Shown here in pieces: positions 3,732-18,612 of a stretch of 20,911 nt of DNA; positions within the stretch are counted from its first letter, which is position 1, and every line of letters starts with the position of its first letter. The notes under the pieces were generated by a model. That model made no database searches and was not told the origin of the DNA. It saw only the letters and a list, made by a program, of their open reading frames with translations. The position numbers were made by a program, and so were the translations under genes. The DNA comes from a virus: positions 1 to 20,911 of IMG/VR virus record IMGVR_UViG_3300021600_000036, one strand, 5' to 3'.

Positions 3732-4793
3732 TTATTGTATGTTTGCATCTAATGAATTATTATTAAATCTATTAGCCGTTCTCCTTTGAGGAGGAGCTCC
3801 TGTTGGATTGTTAGCTATGGGTTCAGCCACTTCTAACATTCTTTGTTTAGAAAACTCAGCTTTAAGAAATATTAGATTGGTATCATCTGCACTATTTCTA
3901 GACTTTAGAATGTGAGCAAAGACATCATCTGTTTTACAAGGATATTCCTTTCTACCATATATTTCAATATCTGCTTTGAATGGTCTAGTTAATACTAACA
4001 CCATATCACTTCCTTGTTGTAAAGCATCTCCACCAAATATGTCAGAGCTGGTAGGATAGTTTCCTATTGTACCAGGAGTTTTTCTAGTAGGTTCATCAAT
4101 ACTTCTATTGAGCTGAGATATCATAAATACAACAATAGGAAGTTTATTCTTCACTTTCATTAACATCTCCACTGTATTATATAAAGTGGATATTTTCTCT
4201 TTCTCTGTTGGATCTTTTTTAATTAACCAACTATGATCTATTGTAACAATAAGTGGCTTTCCCTGCAGTCCTTCATACACTGTATAAATAGCCTGCTCCA
4301 TTTGTTTAACAGTGAGAGGTTCATTAATTTGAGTTCTGTAGTTACCAAGCTTTTCAAAAGCTCTAGTATCATCTAAATATTGTTTCATTAATTTTATAGA
4401 AAAGTCGTCTAGTTCTCTATGAGTACTTAACACTTGATTATAGTCTAATGCCACTTGAGAAGCAAAGTCTCTTGATGCTGTTTGTTTAGGTCCCATTTCA
4501 AATTGAAATTCTAAAATATTAAAATCCTGTGTAGGATTGAGGTATTTAGACTCCCTTAAAATTTGACTAACAAACATAGTTTTACCAGAACCAGGTCTTG
4601 CTCCAATAGTGAGCATTGATCCCCATTCTAGTCCTCCAACACCTGCATTATTTAATCCATCCCAGGGTAGTTTTAATGATTTAATTTTCCCTGCTTTTCT
4701 ATCCTTTATATAGTCTAAACCTTCTTCTAGTATCTCTGTGTAAGTCTTGATACCAAAGGGTCTATCTTTCTGTGGGAGATTTAATAAGTTCAT
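3732..4793 (-). CDS. dnaB-like: DnaB-type replicative helicase (RecA-like core)
   Basis: A 353-residue SF4 helicase core. Walker A is GARPGSGKT (64-72), Walker B is LIVTIDH (181-187), and a DnaB-style MISQLNR (224-230) provides the H3 glutamine. A GGDALQQGSDMVLVL stretch (254-268) and a downstream KSRN element fit the H4 and arginine-finger region. It would unwind the fork as a hexamer and normally works with a primase, here the Toprim protein further down the operon. The usual DnaB N-terminal primase-interaction domain is absent; only about 55 residues precede the P-loop core, as in several phage helicases. The start ATG overlaps the stop of the small membrane-protein gene by one base (TAATG), indicating translational coupling. 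Confidence 0.9.
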   Translation of the reverse strand: MNLLNLPQKDRPFGIKTYTEILEEGLDYIKDRKAGKIKSLKLPWDGLNNAGVGGLEWGSMLTIGARPGSGKTMFVSQILRESKYLNPTQDFNILEFQFEMGPKQTASRDFASQVALDYNQVLSTHRELDDFSIKLMKQYLDDTRAFEKLGNYRTQINEPLTVKQMEQAIYTVYEGLQGKPLIVTIDHSWLIKKDPTEKEKISTLYNTVEMLMKVKNKLPIVVFMISQLNRSIDEPTRKTPGTIGNYPTSSDIFGGDALQQGSDMVLVLTRPFKADIEIYGRKEYPCKTDDVFAHILKSRNSADDTNLIFLKAEFSKQRMLEVAEPIANNPTGAPPQRRTANRFNNNSLDANIQ

Positions 4794-4988: not shown

Positions 4989-5570
4989 TTATAGGTTATC
5001 TAATAATTTTGGATTGTCCATAATTTCCTGACAATAATCAGCAAGTTTTGAACTCACTTCTTTTGTAGTGGTATTAGTCTTCTTTATAAAATAACTACTA
5101 GTGGCCATATACATATAATTCTTTTTTTTAAAGACATCATTGTAATAGTCTGTAGCATCTAACACTAAATCCCAATCATACTCTGGATAGGTTTTAAAGA
5201 ACCATATAAACTTATCCTTAAGCTCTTGTGAACTCTGTCTAGCAAGTTCTCCTGAAGGAAGCCTTTTACTAGGCCATATGTCTCTGTATTCTGTAATCTT
5301 TTCATTAAAGTCTGGTCCTAACACTTCAGAAGTAATCTTCTTTTTAGTTTTTACCAAATATGTCTCAAATTCTGTAAGGATACTTGATGCCTTATTAGTT
5401 AACTTTCCATCCTGGTCTATTAAGCCTTTATGTTGAGCCATCATTCTTTCAGCATCTGGATTAATTAACATCTTAGATGGAATGATTTTTTCCCGGCAAC
5501 AGTCTAAAAAATATATCTGATTAGGACTTAAATTCCATTTCAGAAGGGTGTTCCATAGTTGATGACTCAT
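4989..5570 (-). CDS. replication-operon protein, possible helicase loader
   Basis: A 193-residue, probably helical protein that I do not firmly recognise. It has a short N-terminal segment (LSPNQIYFLDCC), a KGLIDQDGKLTNKA stretch typical of small winged-helix-like folds (about 49-62), an IWPSKRLPSG motif near residue 98, then a WFFKTYPEYDWDLVLDAT segment and MYMATSSYFIKK near the end. Proteins of this general architecture occur beside phage DnaB helicases. Position between a DnaA-IV-like protein and the helicase makes a helicase loader or initiator partner the first hypothesis, but no ATPase motif is present. The gene overlaps the end of its upstream neighbour by 50 bp; the next Met is at residue 34, beyond the N-terminal segment, so I keep this start. 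Confidence 0.65.
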   Translation of the reverse strand: MSHQLWNTLLKWNLSPNQIYFLDCCREKIIPSKMLINPDAERMMAQHKGLIDQDGKLTNKASSILTEFETYLVKTKKKITSEVLGPDFNEKITEYRDIWPSKRLPSGELARQSSQELKDKFIWFFKTYPEYDWDLVLDATDYYNDVFKKKNYMYMATSSYFIKKTNTTTKEVSSKLADYCQEIMDNPKLLDNL

Positions 5571-6006
5571 GATCTTGTTTTATTTTGTTAATGATTTTGT
5601 AATATAGTTCTCTAAACATGTCATCTGTCTCATACCTATTTCTAAAGGTGGTAATTCCGTGAATAATGGTGGTATGATCTTTCCCTCCTAAAAACTGACC
5701 AATATCCTTGAGATTATACCTCATTGACCTAGCTAGGAAAAAGAAAATATATCTAAGCTCTACAAGGGCTCTTATTCTGTGTTTAGACTCAAGACTTACT
5801 GTTTTACCATACATTTTGGGTAAATAAGGGGTAAAATAGCTTTTAAGCTCATCTAAAGTGAGGATTTTTAACCCATCTTTGTTCTCTATATTGTTATATT
5901 TTGTTATAACTGTCGGATAATATCCCAGCTCTTTGTAAAAATTTTCCATAAAATCCTGAATTAAACTCTGCTGAAGCTTTCTCTTAGCTAGTCTTTCTTT
6001 TATCAT
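5521..6006 (-). CDS. DnaA domain IV-like DNA-binding protein
   Basis: A 161-residue protein. Residues 77-120 reproduce the C-terminal domain of the bacterial initiator DnaA: a helix ending in ARSMRYNLKDIGQFLGG followed by the signature KDHTTIIHGI (109-118), corresponding to the GGRDHTTV-H element that reads DnaA boxes. There is no AAA+ ATPase domain. Residues 1-75 are unlike DnaA, with a helix (1-27) and a short mixed region. It is the first gene of the leftward operon, beside the AT-rich divergent region, so it may bind DnaA-like sites as origin-recognition protein, operon regulator or competitor of host DnaA. The tail is charged, and the last 50 bp overlap the next gene. Confidence 0.85.
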   Translation of the reverse strand: MIKERLAKRKLQQSLIQDFMENFYKELGYYPTVITKYNNIENKDGLKILTLDELKSYFTPYLPKMYGKTVSLESKHRIRALVELRYIFFFLARSMRYNLKDIGQFLGGKDHTTIIHGITTFRNRYETDDMFRELYYKIINKIKQDHESSTMEHPSEMEFKS

Positions 6007-6513: not shown

Positions 6514-9500
6514 ATGGGATATCCTCAAGGAATATTTGAAAGACTGGATTGGCTTACTAAAAAGTATAAGCAACTATGTTGTCTTATACAAGGCAATTCA
6601 TCTGCAGGCTGTATTACACATACAGACATCACTTGGGATGCCCTTAATGCTGGTAATGCAGCAGGTACGTTGGCTGATTGTTTCTATAATGTAATAGACA
6701 GACCAAACTCTGGTACTGATCCTCTATATGTATTAGCTGAAGGTGGAAGAGTGGATCTTGATAATGAAGTGGTTAGACAACAGGCAGCTGTTGGATCTTT
6801 GTGTATAGATTCTTTAACAAAAGGAAATGGTTGTTTTAATATATATGCTGAATCAACATCTTACACAGTAAGTTATGTCCCTGGTGTTCAGGTTATACAA
6901 TTACTACTTGACGCTAAATTTTGTTCAGATACTACTTTTGCTATAGGTGATACAGTTACACAAATTGATCCTATTGCTTCACCAACTCCTACAGGAACTA
7001 TTGTTTTTATAGGTGCTGTTGATACAGATGGTTATGGATGTTTTATATATGTAGAAGTGACTAGTGGAACATGGGATTTTGATGGTACTCTTACAAATGG
7101 TGTTGATGAAATACGATTTCGTTATAAACCTGAATGTAGAGATGCTTCTCCTTTAGCTGTTGGTACAGAAGTGTTTGGTATACAAGCTCTTCCTACAGAT
7201 CCTAGACCTATAGGAACTATTACAGCAATCTCTGGAACTACTATTACTATCACTCCTACATCTGGAGATTGGAATGGTGTGGTTGTATTTGGAGTGAGAG
7301 ATAGAGAAAACATATGTTTCTACACTCTTACAGCTCCTATTGTATCAGTTAGTACACAGCTTAATAGTGAAACTGTATGTTGGGATGCTGATTCCTATCT
7401 TGGACTTGGTGTTCAATTAAATACATTAATGCAAGGCATTGATGGATTAATATATGGAACATTACAAGAAGGTTATGAAGGTAATACTAATGGTCAATTA
7501 TTCTCTTTAGATCCTATTACAAACACTGTAAAGGTGTTATTTGAGTTTACTGATCCTACAAATCAAGGAGTTAATCCAACTTCTGGATTAATAGAAATAG
7601 CTGGAGAGTTATATGGTACATGTAGACTTGGAGGAGTTATTGGTAATGGTATATTGTGGAAATGGAACATAGCAACAAGTACATTTACAAAGCTTTATGA
7701 TTTTGATGATAAAAATCTTTTTGATGGAACTGAACCTACAGGAACATTAGCTAATATAGGTGGTGTATTATATGGTACATGTGAATATGGTGGAAATGCA
7801 TTTTCAGCTGCTGGTACATTCTGGTCTTGGAATATAGCCACTGATACATTTACAAAGCTTTATGATTTTGATGCTACAGTAATAGGTAATCCTCAAGGCC
7901 CTCTTGTAGAAGTGAATCCTGGGGAACTGTGGGGTACATCTCAATATGGTGGTGTTAATAATAATGGTACAATATTTAGTATAACAACTAGTGGCTCACC
8001 TAATACAATTATCAATCTTGATGATGTTCCTAATAGTGGAACAGGATCTGTAGGTGGAGCATCTGGTGGTGTATTATTAGCTAGTGATGGTAATGTATAT
8101 TTTAATACAGTGAGAGGTGGATCTGTTGATTTTGGTACAATATGTCAAATTACTAATGTAGCTACCTCTCCTATACTTAATGTTCTTTACGAACTTACTG
8201 ATAGTGTAGTTGAAGGTAATTTATTTAAAAATTTATGCCCTATATATATTGATGGTTATCTTTATGGTGCTATAACTAGTGGTGGTGATTATGGAGCAGG
8301 TACATTATATAAACTAAATGTAGCAACACAATTCTTTACAAAACTACATGATTTTACTGGAAACGATGCTCCTTCAGATGGTGGAGAGTTACTATTTGGA
8401 CAATTCTTTGCTTTAGGTAGTGAGCTATTTGCTATGTCTAATGGAGTTAGATGTAAAATAAGACCTTGTACACAAACTTTCGGACAAATATTTAAATACA
8501 ATATAGATACAGATGTATATACAAATATACATGCTCTAAACTCTCAAGCTCAAACAAGTGCTGATATAGCATTAAACATTTGTGCTAGCATTACAAACCC
8601 AGACTATTTATGTCACACTGTAGGAAACTGTGTATATATTGATGGTCCTGTTGGAGAGAATGGATATACATTAGCTCTTAAGACAGTGGTTACATATAAT
8701 TGGTGTAGAAGGAATAATCCTTTAGATCCTACAGCATGTAATCCCACAATTGGTGATCATTTATATAATGGTGGTCTTTTAGTAGGAACTATACAAACAG
8801 TTACTATCACTTCAACAGAGCCTGAAAGAATATGTGGAACAATGACTGTAGAACTTGCTAATAATAATTATAATCCAGAACCTAGATTTGAATATATTGT
8901 AGATGAAACAGGATGTTTAGGTATTATTGAAGAAGTGACAGGATCAACCCTTAGCTATGAGGTTACACCATTTGCTGGAGGATTTACTCCTGTAAATCTA
9001 CCATGCTATTACAATGTACCTTTTGATGTTATTACAGAATATCCTCTATCACAGAAGCTTACAAAAGCTGAGATAGATTATCTTGTAGCTAACAACTTAT
9101 TAATACCTGGAACTTCCTATCGTATAATTGATGCTGACTTCTTCCTATATGGAGGAACGGAGATTGTTATACAAGCTGTGGCTCCTGATAAGTTTTCTGA
9201 TATTGGGATGGGTAAATTCTACACTCCTAGATATAATCAAGAGATAGAAGGATATGGAATATGGGATGCACAACTTCAAAACGATGGTTTTTATGCTGCT
9301 GGTGATACAGCTATTTGGGGTGGATTAGTTTGGACAAAAATAGATCCTCCTATAGGTGAAGAATGTATAGTTGGTCCACCAAGTCAATATAATTTAAATT
9401 ATGGATGTTGGTCTATTCCTGGAAGAATTAAAATAAGTATCTCTGGAATTTCTGGAACATTTTTAGTTGGTGATTCAGTTTATTCACATGATAGTGACTT

Positions 9501-10551
9501 TATGGGAGTAATTACAGAAGTGGGTGCAGACTATTTAATAGTTATGGCTCCTCCTTCATTCTTTGCAAATCCTACTTGGGAAACAAATCATTATATATAT
9601 GATGATGATAATGGGGCACAAGCTATAATGGATTCTGTAACATTACATGCAGATTATTTTAGTGATCTTATATACAATGTAAGATGGGATGAGATTAAAT
9701 ATGACTATGCTAATGACTTTATTTCTTACAGAAAAGATAACTCTGGTAACAGTGTAAATCAAGAACGTTGGGAATATGATGATTGGGGAACTACCACTTA
9801 TAGAGGTATTCTAGGTATGCAATGGGGTAATGATTTTGATGATAATAGTTATATAGGAATAGGAAGCAACATTATGTCAGGAAATGGATATATTGAACTT
9901 ATCAACTTTAAAGGAGGATATGCTATTAATAACATTTTTGAATCAAGTATGTTTATTAATAATATATTTGTTCCTTCATTTGCTTCAAGATTTTCTAATA
10001 ACAATTTTAATTTATCTGAATGTACAGGTAATGTTATTTATGTTGATTGTTTTATTACTAATAATATTTTAAAAAATGGAGCTTATATTAGTTATAATAA
10101 TATTTCAGCAGGTTCACATATAAGTGATAATTATATTAATATAGGTGATATATCTGGTCATACATTATTAAATGGAGCTTATATTAGTTATAATATATTA
10201 TCAGTAGGTCATATTTCTGGGTTTTCATTAAATAATGGTTCTTATATAGTTTTTAATAATTTAAATAATAATTCTGTAATAAGATCTGGTATATTTACTA
10301 ATAGTAGTAGAATTGATTACTGTAATTTTAATAATGGATGTAATTTTAATTTCAATCCATCTGGTACATTAGCTGCTAAGACAATTAGATTTTTAAATGC
10401 CTATGGTGGAAGTATAAGTTCAAATATTGGAACTGCTACAATTATTTATGGAAACTATGAAAAAGATTTAATAATGAGACCAGATGGAACAGTTGTAATT
10501 AGATATATAAATAACTCTAATACTCAAGTAATTACAGCAGTAACAACTTAA
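6514..10551 (+). CDS. giant modular tail-fibre or adhesin-like protein with GloVer propeller
   Basis: A 1345-residue protein, probably a virion appendage. Residues 1-24 (MGYPQGIFERLDWLTKKYKQLCC) match the start of the collagen-like fibre at 10775. About 110-260 is beta-rich with VGDTV...GTI motifs. About 298-676 holds seven repeats of about 50 residues built around LYGT..GG..G and F.LYDF, the GloVer (TIGR03803) pattern, best read as a seven-bladed beta-propeller. Further beta modules follow (about 725-1050). About 1110-1280 is Asn/Ile/Ser-rich with NGAYISYN-type turns, like a right-handed beta-helix, and the last 60 residues form a cap-like end. There is no signal peptide, as expected for a virion protein. 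Likely roles are receptor or glycan binding. No depolymerase catalytic motif is recognised. Confidence 0.8.
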   Translation: MGYPQGIFERLDWLTKKYKQLCCLIQGNSSAGCITHTDITWDALNAGNAAGTLADCFYNVIDRPNSGTDPLYVLAEGGRVDLDNEVVRQQAAVGSLCIDSLTKGNGCFNIYAESTSYTVSYVPGVQVIQLLLDAKFCSDTTFAIGDTVTQIDPIASPTPTGTIVFIGAVDTDGYGCFIYVEVTSGTWDFDGTLTNGVDEIRFRYKPECRDASPLAVGTEVFGIQALPTDPRPIGTITAISGTTITITPTSGDWNGVVVFGVRDRENICFYTLTAPIVSVSTQLNSETVCWDADSYLGLGVQLNTLMQGIDGLIYGTLQEGYEGNTNGQLFSLDPITNTVKVLFEFTDPTNQGVNPTSGLIEIAGELYGTCRLGGVIGNGILWKWNIATSTFTKLYDFDDKNLFDGTEPTGTLANIGGVLYGTCEYGGNAFSAAGTFWSWNIATDTFTKLYDFDATVIGNPQGPLVEVNPGELWGTSQYGGVNNNGTIFSITTSGSPNTIINLDDVPNSGTGSVGGASGGVLLASDGNVYFNTVRGGSVDFGTICQITNVATSPILNVLYELTDSVVEGNLFKNLCPIYIDGYLYGAITSGGDYGAGTLYKLNVATQFFTKLHDFTGNDAPSDGGELLFGQFFALGSELFAMSNGVRCKIRPCTQTFGQIFKYNIDTDVYTNIHALNSQAQTSADIALNICASITNPDYLCHTVGNCVYIDGPVGENGYTLALKTVVTYNWCRRNNPLDPTACNPTIGDHLYNGGLLVGTIQTVTITSTEPERICGTMTVELANNNYNPEPRFEYIVDETGCLGIIEEVTGSTLSYEVTPFAGGFTPVNLPCYYNVPFDVITEYPLSQKLTKAEIDYLVANNLLIPGTSYRIIDADFFLYGGTEIVIQAVAPDKFSDIGMGKFYTPRYNQEIEGYGIWDAQLQNDGFYAAGDTAIWGGLVWTKIDPPIGEECIVGPPSQYNLNYGCWSIPGRIKISISGISGTFLVGDSVYSHDSDFMGVITEVGADYLIVMAPPSFFANPTWETNHYIYDDDNGAQAIMDSVTLHADYFSDLIYNVRWDEIKYDYANDFISYRKDNSGNSVNQERWEYDDWGTTTYRGILGMQWGNDFDDNSYIGIGSNIMSGNGYIELINFKGGYAINNIFESSMFINNIFVPSFASRFSNNNFNLSECTGNVIYVDCFITNNILKNGAYISYNNISAGSHISDNYINIGDISGHTLLNGAYISYNILSVGHISGFSLNNGSYIVFNNLNNNSVIRSGIFTNSSRIDYCNFNNGCNFNFNPSGTLAAKTIRFLNAYGGSISSNIGTATIIYGNYEKDLIMRPDGTVVIRYINNSNTQVITAVTT
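10075..10195 (+). repeat. 25-bp direct repeat pair inside the adhesin beta-helix
   Basis: The sequence aatggagcttatattagtta plus taata occurs identically at 10075-10099 and 10171-10195, 96 bp (32 codons) apart and in frame. Both copies encode NGAYISYN turns, and a degenerate third copy (NGSYIVFN) follows near 10234. It reflects internal duplication of beta-helix rungs and could recombine to change fibre length. Confidence 0.85.
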
Positions 10552-10774: not shown

Positions 10775-12067
10775 ATGGGATATCCAAATGGAATATATGA
10801 AACTCTAGCTTGGCTCACTAAAAAGGTGAACAGGCTTTGCTGCTGGGTTAAAGAACTAGCAGAAAGTGGTATAGCTGGTCCTCAAGGTCCTGTTGGTCCT
10901 CAAGGCCCACAGGGTGTAGAAGGTCCTCAAGGAACTCAAGGTGAAACAGGTGCTGCTCTTACAGTGTTAGGATCTTACCCAGATCTTGCTAGTTTTCTAG
11001 CAGGAGCTGGTGGTAGCCCAGGTGATCCTGGTACAGCATGGATTATAGAATCAGATGGTTCTTTATATATATGGAATACAGCAACTAATGCTTGGGAAGA
11101 TGTAGGTGATCTACAAGGACCACAAGGACCACAGGGTATCCAAGGGGTACAAGGAGAACAGGGTATACAAGGAGTTCAAGGTATTCAGGGTGTACAAGGT
11201 AATACAGGAAATACAGGTGCTCAGGGAGACCAAGGTGTTCCTGGTATACAAGGATCTGCTGGTAACTCTGTAACTATATTAGGAAGCTATGTAGATCTTG
11301 CAGCTTTCTTAGCTGGTGCAGGAAGTCTTCCTGGAGCTAATATAGGTGATGCATGGATATTATTATCTGATGGAAGTTTATATTCTTGGAATGGTTCTGT
11401 ATGGTTTGATGCTGGTGATATTAAAGGACCTCAAGGTGATCCTGGACCAACTGGTCCAACAGGAGCTACTGGTGATGAAGGACCTCAGGGTGTGCAAGGT
11501 ATTCAAGGACCTCAAGGAATTCAAGGAGTACAAGGAATACAAGGTCCTACAGGATTACCAGGTTTATTTGCTCAAACTGCAGATAGTACACATGTTACAG
11601 CTACTATAGTTGAATCTTCATTAATAGGAACTGGTGTTGGTACATTAACTGTTCCTGCAAATGGATTTTCTATTGGAGATAGTTTTACTGCATTTTTTGA
11701 TGGAAGAATTAGTTGTGTTGGAACTGCCACACTTCATATTAGAGTTAAAACTTTAACAGGAGTTTTATTAGCTGATACAGGTATAATTGCAATGGATGCA
11801 GCTACAGATCATAATTGGAAATTAGATTTGCAATTTACAATAAGAACATTAGGAACAACAGGAGTAGCTTCTATATCTTCAGGAGGACTATTTGGATATG
11901 TTAAAAATTCAGGTAATAACTATGAAGGTTATGTATCAAGTACAGTTAACAATACAACTTTTAATACAACAATAAATAACACTTTAATAGTAACAGCTCA
12001 ATGGAATACAACCAATGCTGGAAATTCAATATTTTCAAGAAACTTTACACTTACAAAAGTATATTAA
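10775..12067 (+). CDS. collagen-like tail-fibre protein
   Basis: A 430-residue fibre protein. Residues 1-30 repeat the MGYP.GI.E.L.WLTKK...LCC module of the giant adhesin. Collagen-type Gly-X-Y blocks lie at about 35-59, 115-163 and 218-263, rich in GPQ, GIQ and GVQ triplets. Between them sit two homologous globular inserts (61-114 and 166-217) sharing VLGSY.DLA.FLAGAG and W...SDGSLY.WN. Residues 264-430 form a beta-rich head that is probably the distal tip. Collagen-like triple helices are common shafts in phage fibres, so a trimer is expected. Likely role: host attachment. The final TAA is followed one base later by the next ATG. Confidence 0.85.
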
Positions 12068-12867: not shown

Positions 12868-13298
12868 ATTGGAAAAACTTTGGAATAAATTTAGCTGATA
12901 AAATCACAAGTTTTGTTGGTTCTTGGAAGTTCATCATACTTCAATCTGTAATTCTTATAGGTTGGATGATGATTAATCTAGACCATATGGTGGGATTTGA
13001 CCCTTATCCTTTTATTCTAATGAATTTGTTTTTATCAGCCCAGGCTGCTTATGCAACACCTATGATTCTTATGTCTGGTAATAGACAAGCTACTAAAGAC
13101 AGAGAAGAGCTTGTTAAAGATTTACAAGTAGATGAGAATACTAATGAGCTTTTACAAAATGTAATGGTTCTTCTTATTAAAATGGAAGAAGATCTTAAAA
13201 TAGATAGACAGGCCCTTAAGGACCATGCTAAAATACTAGCTGAACTTAAAAAAATAGAAAAGAAAACTAGAAAACCTAAAGATCATGGACATAAGTAA
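12864..13298 (+). CDS. DUF1003 family membrane protein
   Basis: A 144-residue protein that matches DUF1003 well: two membrane segments (about 22-40 and 52-72) linked by the typical DPYPFILMNLFLSAQAA stretch, followed by the ATPMILMSGNRQATKDRE motif and a long cytoplasmic helix (about 78-144, rich in Lys and Glu, heptad-like). The molecular role of the family is not established. Here the gene overlaps its upstream neighbour by 4 bp and the endolysin gene by 14 bp, placing it firmly in the lysis block. It may serve as a holin or a membrane-stress component; that is inference from position. Confidence 0.82.
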   Translation: MNWKNFGINLADKITSFVGSWKFIILQSVILIGWMMINLDHMVGFDPYPFILMNLFLSAQAAYATPMILMSGNRQATKDREELVKDLQVDENTNELLQNVMVLLIKMEEDLKIDRQALKDHAKILAELKKIEKKTRKPKDHGHK

Positions 13299-13878
13299 GT
13301 TAAAAGGACATATACCTGATTCAGTTTTAGCTCAAATTCCTGAAGTAATAACTAAGTTTGGTATTGATACAGTTGTTAAACTATCTCATTTCTTAGCTCA
13401 ATGTAGTCATGAATCAGGTGGGTTTAAACTTACACAAGAGAACCTAAACTATGGTGCTAAAGGATTGAGAGGGGTATTTCCTAAATACTTCCCTACAGAC
13501 GATTTAGCTGCTGCATATGAAAGAAAGCCTGAGAAAATAGCTAATAGAGTTTATGCTAATAGAATGGGTAATGGAGATGAGGCATCTGGTATGGGGTATA
13601 AATTTTGTGGCAGAGGGTTTATCCAGCTTACTGGTCATGATAACTATAAAGCATTCTCTACTGCTATAGGAGAAGATTGTGTAGCAGTTCCTGAGCTAGT
13701 AGCAACAAAGTATCCTCTTGCTTCAGCAGCTTGGTTCTTTAGTAAGAACTGTCTTAAGAAAGCTGTAGATGCTAGTGAAGCTTCTGTAATAGCTGTGAGT
13801 AAGTGTGTAAATGGTGGAACTATTGGTTTAGAAGATAGAATAAAACATTTTAATGAATACTATAAATTACTTGCATAA
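13285..13878 (+). CDS. GH19 endolysin (chitinase-like peptidoglycan hydrolase)
   Basis: A 197-residue single-domain lysozyme of glycoside hydrolase family 19. HFLAQCSHESGGF (35-47) contains the expected catalytic Glu at 43. NRVYANRMGNGDE (87-99) with YKFCGRGFIQLTG (about 105-117) forms the second conserved block, and SAAWFF (about 147-152) follows. Length matches phage GH19 endolysins, which cleave the glycan strands of peptidoglycan. There is no signal peptide or wall-binding domain, so release to the periplasm should depend on a holin. It starts inside the DUF1003 gene (14-bp overlap) and its TAA overlaps the next ATG by one base. Confidence 0.92.
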   Translation: MDISKLKGHIPDSVLAQIPEVITKFGIDTVVKLSHFLAQCSHESGGFKLTQENLNYGAKGLRGVFPKYFPTDDLAAAYERKPEKIANRVYANRMGNGDEASGMGYKFCGRGFIQLTGHDNYKAFSTAIGEDCVAVPELVATKYPLASAAWFFSKNCLKKAVDASEASVIAVSKCVNGGTIGLEDRIKHFNEYYKLLA

Positions 13879-14265: not shown

Positions 14266-14526
14266 ATGTCTAAAGAACTTACATTAGAACAGATGATTAG
14301 TTTAGAACAAGAAGTTTTAGATTATAAAAAATCTAAAAATCTTGCTGCTATAGCTAAACTTACAGAAAAATTAGCTGCTGCTACAGAAGAAGATGTTAAG
14401 AAACATCTTCAATCAGATATTGATGATTACACTTGGGAAAAAGAATGGCTTGATAGTCAAGATGCTACAGCTTCTGTAAATAAAAGATTATTAAAAAAAC
14501 AATCTAAATCACCTAAACATGTCTAA
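14266..14526 (+). CDS. small helical protein
   Basis: An 86-residue, highly charged and probably all-helical protein (start MSKELTLEQMISLEQEVLDY). The heptad-like spacing of Leu, Ile and Ala through about residues 5-55 suggests a coiled coil; then comes an EKEWLDSQD segment and a basic tail (KRLLKKQSKSPKHV). There is no membrane segment and no recognised family. It overlaps the next adhesin-like gene by 8 bp, suggesting co-translation. A structural, chaperone or assembly role is possible from the neighbourhood alone. Confidence 0.65.
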   Translation: MSKELTLEQMISLEQEVLDYKKSKNLAAIAKLTEKLAAATEEDVKKHLQSDIDDYTWEKEWLDSQDATASVNKRLLKKQSKSPKHV

Positions 14527-15731: not shown

Positions 15732-17615
15732 ATGGCAAAGAAAAAAAGGGCTTTTGTAAAATACACTAAGAAAGGAAAGATTATTCCAGGTAGTCTTATT
15801 GTAGGTACATCAGGAGGCTATCCTAAAGATGGCTTATATGAAGAGGTGACTCCTAATTTATGTTGTGAAACACCACAATGTTTTAAAACAATTCTTCAGG
15901 GGTTGTTTGATAGTATTCCTATTGATGATCCAAATCCTTTGGATACTTTACGTAATATACTATTTACAACTAATCTTCCTGCAAGTTTAGATAATATAGG
16001 ATATACTACTACATGTTGTACTTGTTCATCATGTTCTACAATTTCTAGTTTTGGAACAATTAATATGGCAAGTGTAGAAACTTTCTTAAAGTTTTATGAA
16101 GGTATTGTCAGAAGTGGTGATGCTTCATCATTATGTTGTTTAGGAGCTCTATCTAGTGTAGAAACATTCTTAAAGTTTCAAGAAGCTATAAATAGTTTTT
16201 CTGGTCCTTCTGCTTTATGTTGTCCTAATGTATTGGCAAGCATAGAAACCTATCTTAAATTTAGTGAAGCACGTACGTATAGTGGATCAGAAACTCCTAT
16301 ATGTGGATGTAATACAGTGTTTGGTAATGTACCTCAATATTTTAAATATTGGGAAGCAACTAATAGAGCTACTATTAATTCTGCAGTTGCTAGTTGTCCA
16401 TGTAATGATGTTATATCTTCATATGAAAGATATGTTTATTATTGTAGTGTTTTAGGAGTTCCTGCCACTCTACCTGAACCTATTACACCACTTAATTATG
16501 TTAGTTACGGAAGTCCTACATGTGGACTCACTCCCACACAGCAAAGTTGTGTATTAGCATTAGAAGCTATACTTGGTACTGAATGTTTACAAGCTAGATT
16601 AGATTATGGAATTATTGATGTACCTGGACAATCTAATACCTATTTATCTTGTCAATTACAAGATATTTTTTCTTCTTCAAGTGATCCTGATAAATGTGAA
16701 GTTTTACAAAACTTACAAGATAAAGGAGTGGTGCATGAAACAGATGCAGCATCTCAAAATGCTGGTGAAAAACTAATAACTTTCCTTGATAAAGGAATTG
16801 ATATTGATAGAAGATTAGATAAAGGAACTGTACAAAGTGGTCTATTTAATCAGCATGATGCTTTTTATAAACTAAATGTATTATATAGTGCAGTGGGTGC
16901 AGCTAATATTAATATGGTAGTTGATAGAATTCTTGATAAAGGATTGTTAGAATATGGTAATTCCACTGATGGATCGGCATTTTTTACAGCTATAGAAATA
17001 CTTGCTGCTAGACCTGATATGACCGAGACATTGATGATGGACTTTATTGATTATTTATTAGATAGAAGTTTAGTGATGACATTTGGTCCTGATTGTAAAG
17101 TGAGTATTACATGTACAGAACACTATTTACAAGTTTGGACTGCATTAAATTGTACTACTAGTAATGGATATACAGACTTTACCACTGGAATAATAGATTG
17201 GAGTAGATTTGGTACAGATACTGATGGAGATTATTTAGTAGATTATAGCAGTGAACCTGCAACTATGTATGGTGAAGGAACAAACACTTCAAGATATACT
17301 GTTACATCATTCTTAACATGTTATTGTAATGATGGATCTCATGATACAGATGGTTTTGGTAATCAATATCCTTATATTTATTGGAATAGCACTCCTGCAT
17401 TTACAGGAACAGACCCTGATGCATATTTTAGAATCATAATAAATGGTGTTATAGTGTTTGAAAGTGTAGCTGGTGTTGTTACAGTTGCTCCTGTTAGTTA
17501 TTACTTCCCATTGGTTCCTGTTGACACATGTTTGAATTATCAAGTGACAATAGAGTCTTATGCTGGTGAAACTGGAGCAACATTTGGATATGATTTTAGT
17601 TTTGGATATGATTAA
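15732..17615 (+). CDS. Cys-rich repeat adhesin-like protein
   Basis: A 627-residue protein. Residues 5-46 are the RAFVKYTKKGKIIPGSL...LCC module also found at 14519 and 17638. About 95-245 holds five units of 28-31 residues, each a helix of the S.ETFLKF.EA kind followed by a Cys pair (CC, CGC or CPC); the first three are exactly 84 bp apart. A CCTCSSC cluster precedes them. About 310-460 is largely helical with recurrent DKG motifs and an LFNQHDAFYKLNVL segment resembling one in the gene at 17638. The last 150 residues look like a beta-sandwich with DTDGD and paired Cys. I recognise no family. An appendage role is inferred from the module and position. Confidence 0.72.
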   Translation: MAKKKRAFVKYTKKGKIIPGSLIVGTSGGYPKDGLYEEVTPNLCCETPQCFKTILQGLFDSIPIDDPNPLDTLRNILFTTNLPASLDNIGYTTTCCTCSSCSTISSFGTINMASVETFLKFYEGIVRSGDASSLCCLGALSSVETFLKFQEAINSFSGPSALCCPNVLASIETYLKFSEARTYSGSETPICGCNTVFGNVPQYFKYWEATNRATINSAVASCPCNDVISSYERYVYYCSVLGVPATLPEPITPLNYVSYGSPTCGLTPTQQSCVLALEAILGTECLQARLDYGIIDVPGQSNTYLSCQLQDIFSSSSDPDKCEVLQNLQDKGVVHETDAASQNAGEKLITFLDKGIDIDRRLDKGTVQSGLFNQHDAFYKLNVLYSAVGAANINMVVDRILDKGLLEYGNSTDGSAFFTAIEILAARPDMTETLMMDFIDYLLDRSLVMTFGPDCKVSITCTEHYLQVWTALNCTTSNGYTDFTTGIIDWSRFGTDTDGDYLVDYSSEPATMYGEGTNTSRYTVTSFLTCYCNDGSHDTDGFGNQYPYIYWNSTPAFTGTDPDAYFRIIINGVIVFESVAGVVTVAPVSYYFPLVPVDTCLNYQVTIESYAGETGATFGYDFSFGYD

Positions 17616-17637: not shown

Positions 17638-18612
17638 ATGAAAAAAAGAGCATTTGTAAGGTACAGTAAGCAAGGCAAAATTGTACCTGGTAGTTTGATC
17701 CTAACAGGAGGAAGTTATCCTCAAGGACCATCTACATGGAACGAGGTTCCAGCAGACTTATGTTGTACAACTTCTGTATTTCCACCTAATCCAGCATCTT
17801 ATACAGTCACTGTTCAAAGTCAGTACACAGGTGCTGTATCAGCATTAAGATTTGCTGAAGCTGCTAAAGAGTTTATTAAAACTCAAGGATACAGTTATAA
17901 AGATGTACTTCTTAGTACAGATGTATGTTCTGATGATGTTAATGCTATAGAGCATGTTGACAATCTAGGACAGACTTCTGCACAACAATCTAATTTACTT
18001 GGACCATTCTTTGGTGCAGGATTAGCTGGTTATCCTCATACTGGTGTATTAGGACTACAAGCTTGGGGTTCTCACATTACAGCTGATGGAGCTTTATTCT
18101 TAGTTAACATGCCTCATATAGGTGTATCACAAGCTGGTAATGTAGGACGTATGTGGAGAAAAGGTAAAACTCAAGCTGAGTCTTTAACAGATAATACTTG
18201 TGGTGCTGTAGCAACAGCTGCTACATGGGTTATTAATAATGCATCTGCTCCAGTGTATAATACAGGAGTCTTTAATAATAATGATCAGTTTTATAAACTT
18301 TGTGTTATACTACGTGTTTTTAGAGCTACAATATTAGCTTCTTACAACTTTGTAGCAACACCATCTTTATATGGAGCTTCTATGAAATATTGTACAGAGC
18401 AAATTAGAATAGCATCAAATACATTTCTTACAGGAGCAACTGGTATAGTGGGTGCTAACGTAGGATTTAATGTAGATGTATTCTATTGTAATGGTACATT
18501 TATTAATGTAGACCATGGATATAATGCTTATGTAAAAGTAACTTCTTTTAAAAAGTACAACTCTACATCAGGATGGACAGATTTAACAACACAATTTTTA
18601 AACATTTTATAA
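17638..18612 (+). CDS. adhesin-like protein with LCIB-like beta-carbonic-anhydrase-type domain
   Basis: A 324-residue protein. Residues 3-44 are the shared RAFVRYSKQGKIVPGSL...VPADLCC module. Residues about 58-200 resemble the LCIB/LCIC limiting-CO2 protein family, a divergent group of zinc beta-carbonic anhydrases: TDVCSDDVN (95-102), a GPFFGAGLAGYPHTG block (122-136), FLVNMPHIGVSQAGNVGRM (154-172), WRKGKT (173-178) and NTCGAV (186-191). By analogy Cys97, His160 and Cys188 could be the zinc ligands, with Asp99 nearby. About 205-324 is a separate region with FNNNDQFYKLCVI near 212-224 and a beta-rich end. Recognition is from memory of the motif order, not a search. Activity is unknown; the fold may serve binding. 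Confidence 0.68.
   Translation: MKKRAFVRYSKQGKIVPGSLILTGGSYPQGPSTWNEVPADLCCTTSVFPPNPASYTVTVQSQYTGAVSALRFAEAAKEFIKTQGYSYKDVLLSTDVCSDDVNAIEHVDNLGQTSAQQSNLLGPFFGAGLAGYPHTGVLGLQAWGSHITADGALFLVNMPHIGVSQAGNVGRMWRKGKTQAESLTDNTCGAVATAATWVINNASAPVYNTGVFNNNDQFYKLCVILRVFRATILASYNFVATPSLYGASMKYCTEQIRIASNTFLTGATGIVGANVGFNVDVFYCNGTFINVDHGYNAYVKVTSFKKYNSTSGWTDLTTQFLNIL

Follow-up and report, generated by a model that had tools for sequence, protein, structure and literature searches.

A single open reading frame of a crAss-like phage encodes an anchor-like N-terminal segment, module A, joined to a complete LCIB/theta-type domain with a predicted beta-carbonic-anhydrase fold and a fully conserved active site. 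The frame lies in a window of 20,911 nt, which is the whole stretch of DNA analyzed here (positions 1 to 20,911 of the IMG/VR record IMGVR_UViG_3300021600_000036). We give an even chance to the reading that its product is an accessory virion-display protein of the phage, in which module A serves for docking and the LCIB domain is a zinc enzyme with CO2/HCO3- as its substrate. Algae use LCIB proteins in their CO2-concentrating mechanisms, where the activity of these proteins is a matter of dispute. To our knowledge, carbonic anhydrase is known on no virus particle. The sequence-only reading had called the setting of the domain unusual; we agree, and a search of the open-access literature found no earlier report linking LCIB to phage. 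The positions of the features are collected in Table 1.

Table 1. Positions of the features in the window and the basis of their assignment.
Feature	Positions	Strand	Basis
Replicative helicase	3732..4793	-	Best matches in Crassvirales; neighbor order as in NC_055900
GH19-type endolysin, lysis/display region	13285..13878	+	PF00182, E=2.1e-8
Module A + BspA-type leucine-rich repeats, 400 aa	14519..15721	+	LRR_5, E=5.7e-26; module A, 1e-17
Module A + Cys-rich repetitive protein, 627 aa	15732..17615	+	Module A, 6e-16
ORF, 324 aa: anchor module A + LCIB-type domain of predicted beta-carbonic-anhydrase fold	17638..18612	+	Motifs, Pfam, profile, model
Module A, residues 1-45 (KKRAFVRYSKQGKIVPGSLIL...WNEVPADLCC), anchor-like N-terminus	17638..17772	+	Profile on 83 ORFs; dN/dS 0.126
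LCIB/theta-type domain, approximately residues 52-308	17791..18561	+	Profile vs. PtLCIB4 (5b5y); Pfam
C97 (predicted zinc ligand) and D99 of CSDDVN	17926..17934	+	126/126 phage and 39/39 cellular rows
Phage-specific loop around G111-Q112 (NxGQ)	17950..17991	+	Low model confidence; gap in cells
H146, PtLCIB4 His88 column	18073..18075	+	Invariant; Ala in the H88A chain 5b5z
H160, predicted zinc ligand (PHIG)	18115..18117	+	Invariant in all phage and cellular rows
R174, sole invariant Arg	18157..18159	+	Invariant in all rows
C188, predicted zinc ligand (TCGA)	18199..18201	+	Invariant

The assignment to the LCIB family had been proposed on the basis of five motifs, VCSDDVN (with C97), GAGLAGYPHTG, NMPHIGVSQAGNVG (with H160), WRKGK (residues 173-177), and NTCGAV (with C188), and all of them were found in that order in the single frame. 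A profile search against Pfam LCIB_C_CA (PF18599), which had been suggested as a check, gave a significant match (E=1.2e-22, 80.7 bits at a curated cut-off of 25), best over residues 71-198 (17848-18231), and the same model was matched by 22 of the 22 members of alignment A2. With phmmer, the single sequence retrieved 6kfs (6.9e-12) and PtLCIB4 (2.9e-10). The family profile (A4), based on 56 relatives (47 phage rows and nine from cellular loci), matched solved LCIB structures from diatoms and cyanobacteria over almost the full length of the profile; with PtLCIB4 (5b5y), the aligned profile positions were 3-257 of 270 (E=2.5e-38), so that the domain includes the C-terminal GTFINVD part. The extent first given for the domain, 17809-18237 (residues 58-200), was therefore too short, since the C-terminal half also aligns with the C-termini of cellular LCIB proteins.

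Structure prediction pointed to the same family. The first AlphaFold model, made with 22 sequences, was poor around residues 94-136, yet it retrieved LCIB structures; the second, made with 56 sequences, had a pLDDT of 84.6 and a pTM of 0.86, the prediction being that of a monomer. When the second model was compared with the PDB using Foldseek, seven of seven matches at E<=0.001 were LCIB-family entries, the best being 6kfs (2.3e-13) and 5b5y (TM 0.78). The model thus supports the beta-carbonic-anhydrase-like LCIB fold that had been expected from the motifs, and at this threshold it retrieved entries of no other family. Neither a missing profile hit nor a wrong fold, two outcomes named beforehand as contradicting the sequence-only reading, was seen. 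The search of the predicted viral proteins in BFVD gave nothing at E<=0.001. The loop at residues 102-117 (model residues 54-69) had a pLDDT below 50 in the second model, and the case for the zinc site is built on aligned columns. A chance match of the motifs was ruled out by the profile, the structure, and the 156 confirmed viral stretches described below.

In the alignment, C97 and D99 correspond to Cys46 and Asp48 of PtLCIB4 (via the S47R mutant chain), and the S98 column is that of Ser47 (mutant chain 5b60). The features of LCIB proteins, namely the Cys/His/Cys ligands, the Asp, and an equivalent of His88, could all be located by alignment, and the earlier proposal that C97, H160, and C188 are zinc ligands is retained as a prediction from aligned, invariant columns. 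Six residues, C97, D99, H146, H160, R174, and C188, were unchanged across 126 phage and 39 cellular rows, and these were the only polar positions among the 17 columns conserved at >=97% in both 47 phage and 31 cellular representatives. Since the earlier scans leaned partly on the CSD motif, the search was repeated with the C-terminal half alone. It yielded 71 loci with 77 ORFs, 76 of which kept all six residues; the remaining ORF is cut by the contig end and retains the four residues that it covers. The two scans comprise approximately 200 phage rows, a number that is not a sum of independent counts because their contigs overlap, and a degraded active site was found in none of these rows. The retention of the full set in every intact phage copy suggests a working enzyme.

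The number of viral loci recovered from IMG/VR depended on the query: 10 with the single sequence, 37 with an alignment, and 156 confirmed viral contig stretches, 80 of which were kept, with a mixed alignment of phage and PDB sequences. The confirmed stretches included crAss-like records and records with myovirus-type structural genes. Among INPHARED phages, no match was found to the whole protein, to the N-terminal modules, or to the phage copy closest to cellular proteins, and no PHROGs family was matched. On some contigs (L034, L035, L036, L051, L052, L075, and L078), two LCIB-domain copies stand in tandem, and some of the second copies have CADD in place of CSDD, with the six active-site residues retained. 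By analogy with algal LCIB/LCIC, such pairs could possibly form heterodimers.

On a tree of 80 rows, all phage rows formed one clade (SH-aLRT 100) with a stem of 1.84 changes per column. The clade was placed inside the Bacteroidota-type cellular rows, apart from the outgroup of diatom sequences and 6kfs. The tree was a quick one, its phage stem is long, and cellular rows from outside Bacteroidota were sparsely sampled; the derivation of the phage domain from Bacteroidota is therefore likely, short of proof. PF18599 was detected in 34 of 395 sampled genomes of the phylum Bacteroidota, in single-domain proteins; the cellular homologs are stand-alone and 230-260 aa long. Of the nine cellular loci that the contig scan gave, five (L043, L044, L045, L047, and L048) have a bestrophin gene as the next gene; they belong to Dyadobacter (two), Hymenobacter (two), and one Acidobacteria MAG. 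Algal bestrophin-like proteins are described as carrying HCO3- in the CO2-concentrating mechanism (PMC6708349). Taken with this role, the bestrophin neighbor suggests inorganic carbon as the substrate of the cellular relatives. The adjacency in bacteria is a counterpart of the algal LCIB-bestrophin partnership.

According to the preferred reading, the phage protein would consist of a short N-terminal tag, module A, which docks it on the particle, and a complete LCIB/theta-type beta-carbonic-anhydrase domain, kin of Bacteroidota LCIB and acquired once by phages. The domain would probably be dimeric, with Zn2+ held by C97, H160, and C188 and the zinc-bound water activated by D99, H146, and R174. 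The virion-borne enzyme would then work at the host surface or close to it, with CO2/HCO3- or a small molecule closely related to it as substrate, perhaps to the benefit of the phage. Several observations count against a CO2 enzyme. Activity within the family is uneven, with CO2 hydration confined to some members: recombinant LCIB and LCIC and the native LCIB-LCIC complex showed no carbonic anhydrase activity in vitro (PMC8825250), which has been ascribed to a His and an Arg that are disordered (PMC5876011); the Arg of the canonical CxDxR motif is missing; and positions near the site are changed. P148, Y157, and F143 of the cellular proteins are replaced in almost every phage representative, by T, by N/S/V, and by W, respectively, and residue 187, a Cys in most cells, is T or S in phages. 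G111 occurs in 126 of 126 phage rows and falls in a gap in 39 of 39 cellular rows.

Since positions constant in cells, such as P148 and Y157, are altered in phages, the substrate may differ. It is conceivable, although unlikely, that the zinc site was kept for another reaction at the surface of the host, for example the hydrolysis of an ester or a small sulfur or carbon compound, as would be expected of a tail-associated decorating enzyme. An invariant first shell combined with changes at P148, Y157, C187, and F143, the phage-only G111-Q112 loop, and the long phage stem would all fit such a change of reaction, but the bestrophin-adjacent cellular relatives point to inorganic carbon.

Loss of the catalytic Arg was considered as a phage trait and rejected: position 103 is Ala or Gly in phages and mostly Asn or Ala in Bacteroidota cells. 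The Arg of the CSDEVNRP motif of PtLCIB4 and 6kfs is absent from the phage proteins and likewise from most Bacteroidota cell proteins.

The sequence-only reading had also described the LCIB domain as fused to an N-terminal module present on two other adhesin-like genes. The module A profile bears this out, as it matched the two display-type genes upstream (starting at 14519 and 15732). In the fetched loci, it detected 83 ORFs, of which 53 carry LCIB and approximately 30 carry unrelated C-termini, including leucine-rich repeats, Cys-rich repeats, and others; once the module was in tandem. Two further modules, B and C, form the N-termini of other display-type proteins of the same region. We infer attachment of the LCIB protein to the virion from this modularity and from the gene context.

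Several side observations concern these display-type proteins. The 627-aa protein (15732-17615) contains several VETFLKFxEAI-like copies followed by CC; it matched the NCBIfam GvpA model weakly (2e-8 in total, below the cut-off) and nothing in Pfam. We take this repeat type to resemble the C-terminal helix of GvpA. A module B protein of 1345 aa (6514-10551) has six matches to the GloVer repeat (TIGR03803; E=1.5e-42). Collagen-like display proteins with module B (window 10775-12067) and module C (locus L003, 8540-9967) have similar collagen regions, and the occurrence of such regions on different N-terminal modules suggests swapping between anchors and ectodomains. An LCC motif is found in both anchor modules A and B (ADLCCTT, QLCCLIQ, and RLCCWVK; e.g., window 17758-17766) and is possibly a disulfide or assembly signal. 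In locus L073, a 94-aa module C protein (5372-5653) directly follows the major head protein; its size and C-terminal pattern are like those of crAss001 gp21, with a profile match that was not significant.

The substitution rates differed along the protein. Among eight close relatives, dN/dS was low in the anchor (0.126) and the core (0.135) and higher in the C-terminal half (0.405) and the linker (0.475); recombination in L007 and L008 influences the value for the C-terminal half. In these two loci, residues 191-258 form a divergent segment like that of L012-L017 in place of the version found in the other close relatives, which looks like recombination within the LCIB domain. The gene is accessory: it was present in two of 21 records (20 fetched by helicase, plus L010), and the rest include some fragments. 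A 77-aa module A protein is all that occupies the matching slot in the 125-kb record G435.

Such patchy presence resembles that of host-range genes, and together with the faster, exchangeable C-terminal half and the adhesin-like C-termini that module A bears elsewhere, it would agree with a non-catalytic reuse of the fold, as a dimeric receptor-binding or spacer domain with structural zinc. The sequence-only reading had offered binding beside proton or bicarbonate chemistry as a possible use. This alternative is weakened by the finding that none of the phage rows in the two scans has lost the site, and the non-ligands D99, H146, and R174 are as invariant as the ligands, which favors catalysis over structural zinc. 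We therefore consider non-catalytic reuse rather unlikely.

By replication gene order and helicase similarity, the phage of the window is a Crassvirales relative. The gene order of the left half (helicase, hypothetical, Sak4-like, hypothetical, primase, and HNH) parallels that of Crassvirales NC_055900, and the top phage matches of the helicase are crAss-like. The crassvirus genes for terminase, portal, and major capsid protein lie outside the window fragment; the NC_055900 terminase was matched in 10 of 28 viral carrier records, namely the sister record G001 (2.8e-32) and nine further carriers, and other carriers of 32-272 kb gave no match. The terminase gene of NC_055900 itself (L130, 22442-24487) has 11 stops under table 11 and is accepted with TAG read as Gln, from which this crAss-like phage appears recoded; under that table, no stop interrupts the genes of the window or the terminase frames matched in related records. 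In other loci, the LCIB gene is accompanied by different structural genes: it adjoins tail sheath and tube genes, with a head-tail adaptor also nearby, in L126; a major head protein is among its structural neighbors in L070, and portal and major head proteins are in L073. The crAss-like carriers and the other structural genes in L126 and L070 indicate that the gene occurs in at least two phage lineages.

This gene context bears on whether the enzyme acts off the particle. An intracellular auxiliary metabolic enzyme working during infection would match the stand-alone cellular homologs, but the phage copies are located in structural gene clusters and add N-terminal modules common to non-enzymatic display-type proteins, and so we hold this explanation to be improbable. 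Injection of the protein with the DNA as virion cargo, active in the new host, for example beside a bestrophin channel, is very improbable: the capsid and tail of crAss001 do contain large cargo proteins (PMC10172136) and the host-type gene adjoins bestrophin, but the crAss001 cargo proteins gp45-gp50 are encoded outside the fibre/lysis region, and module A is also borne by leucine-rich and repeat-rich proteins resembling surface proteins.

A displayed zinc enzyme is the most economical account. A more specific claim, that phages of at least two lineages carry on the virion exterior an active zinc carbonic anhydrase, obtained from Bacteroidota hosts, that shifts the level of CO2, bicarbonate, or protons at the cell surface as the phage adsorbs, appears doubtful to us. 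Should the virion display the domain in active form, phage particles would bear an unexpected kind of enzyme, and inorganic-carbon chemistry would enter phage-host contact. A large viral LCIB branch with an intact active site provides an independent natural experiment on the roles of the residues, and work on uncultured phages of environmental Bacteroidota gains a marker gene together with a modular anchor.

In crAss001, the head fibres gp21 and gp29 dock by residues 1-38 (as a trimer) and 1-58 (as a dimer), respectively, and the tail fibre gp22 docks by residues 1-26 (PMC10172136). The proposed likeness is that of an exposed domain behind a short docking N-terminus, together with a lysis/fibre neighborhood, since gp29 adjoins lysis genes and the module A genes do likewise in the region of the window; a dimeric LCIB domain would, hypothetically, fit a dimeric head fibre. 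However, the exposed domains are different, and modules A, B, and C had no significant sequence similarity to the anchors of gp21, gp29, and gp22; therefore, the docking parallel is an analogy.

Canonical beta-carbonic anhydrases (CxDxR...HxxC) and DabA2 share with the phage protein a beta-carbonic-anhydrase-like fold and, by family relation, a Cys2His zinc site. Unlike in these enzymes, the phage sequence reads C97-S-D-D-V, and its His and Cys (H160 and C188) are 28 residues apart. The Arg of CxDxR, required in DabA2 (PMC13144422), is missing from the phage protein and from its cellular relatives. With PtLCIB4 (5b5y) and 6kfs, the likeness extends to the fold, the Cys/His/Cys residues with LCIB spacing, the Asp, the His88 equivalent, the Arg174 column, and the C-terminal hairpin; the differences are the N-terminal display module, the phage-only GQ loop, P148T, Y157N, and C187T, at approximately 20% identity. 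The LCIB proteins of Bacteroidota (Runella, Dyadobacter, Hymenobacter, and Spirosoma) are chromosomal, single-domain, without an anchor module, and in five of nine loci beside bestrophin, whereas they share with the phage protein the CSDDVNA motif and full-length homology and form its nearest cellular group on the tree.
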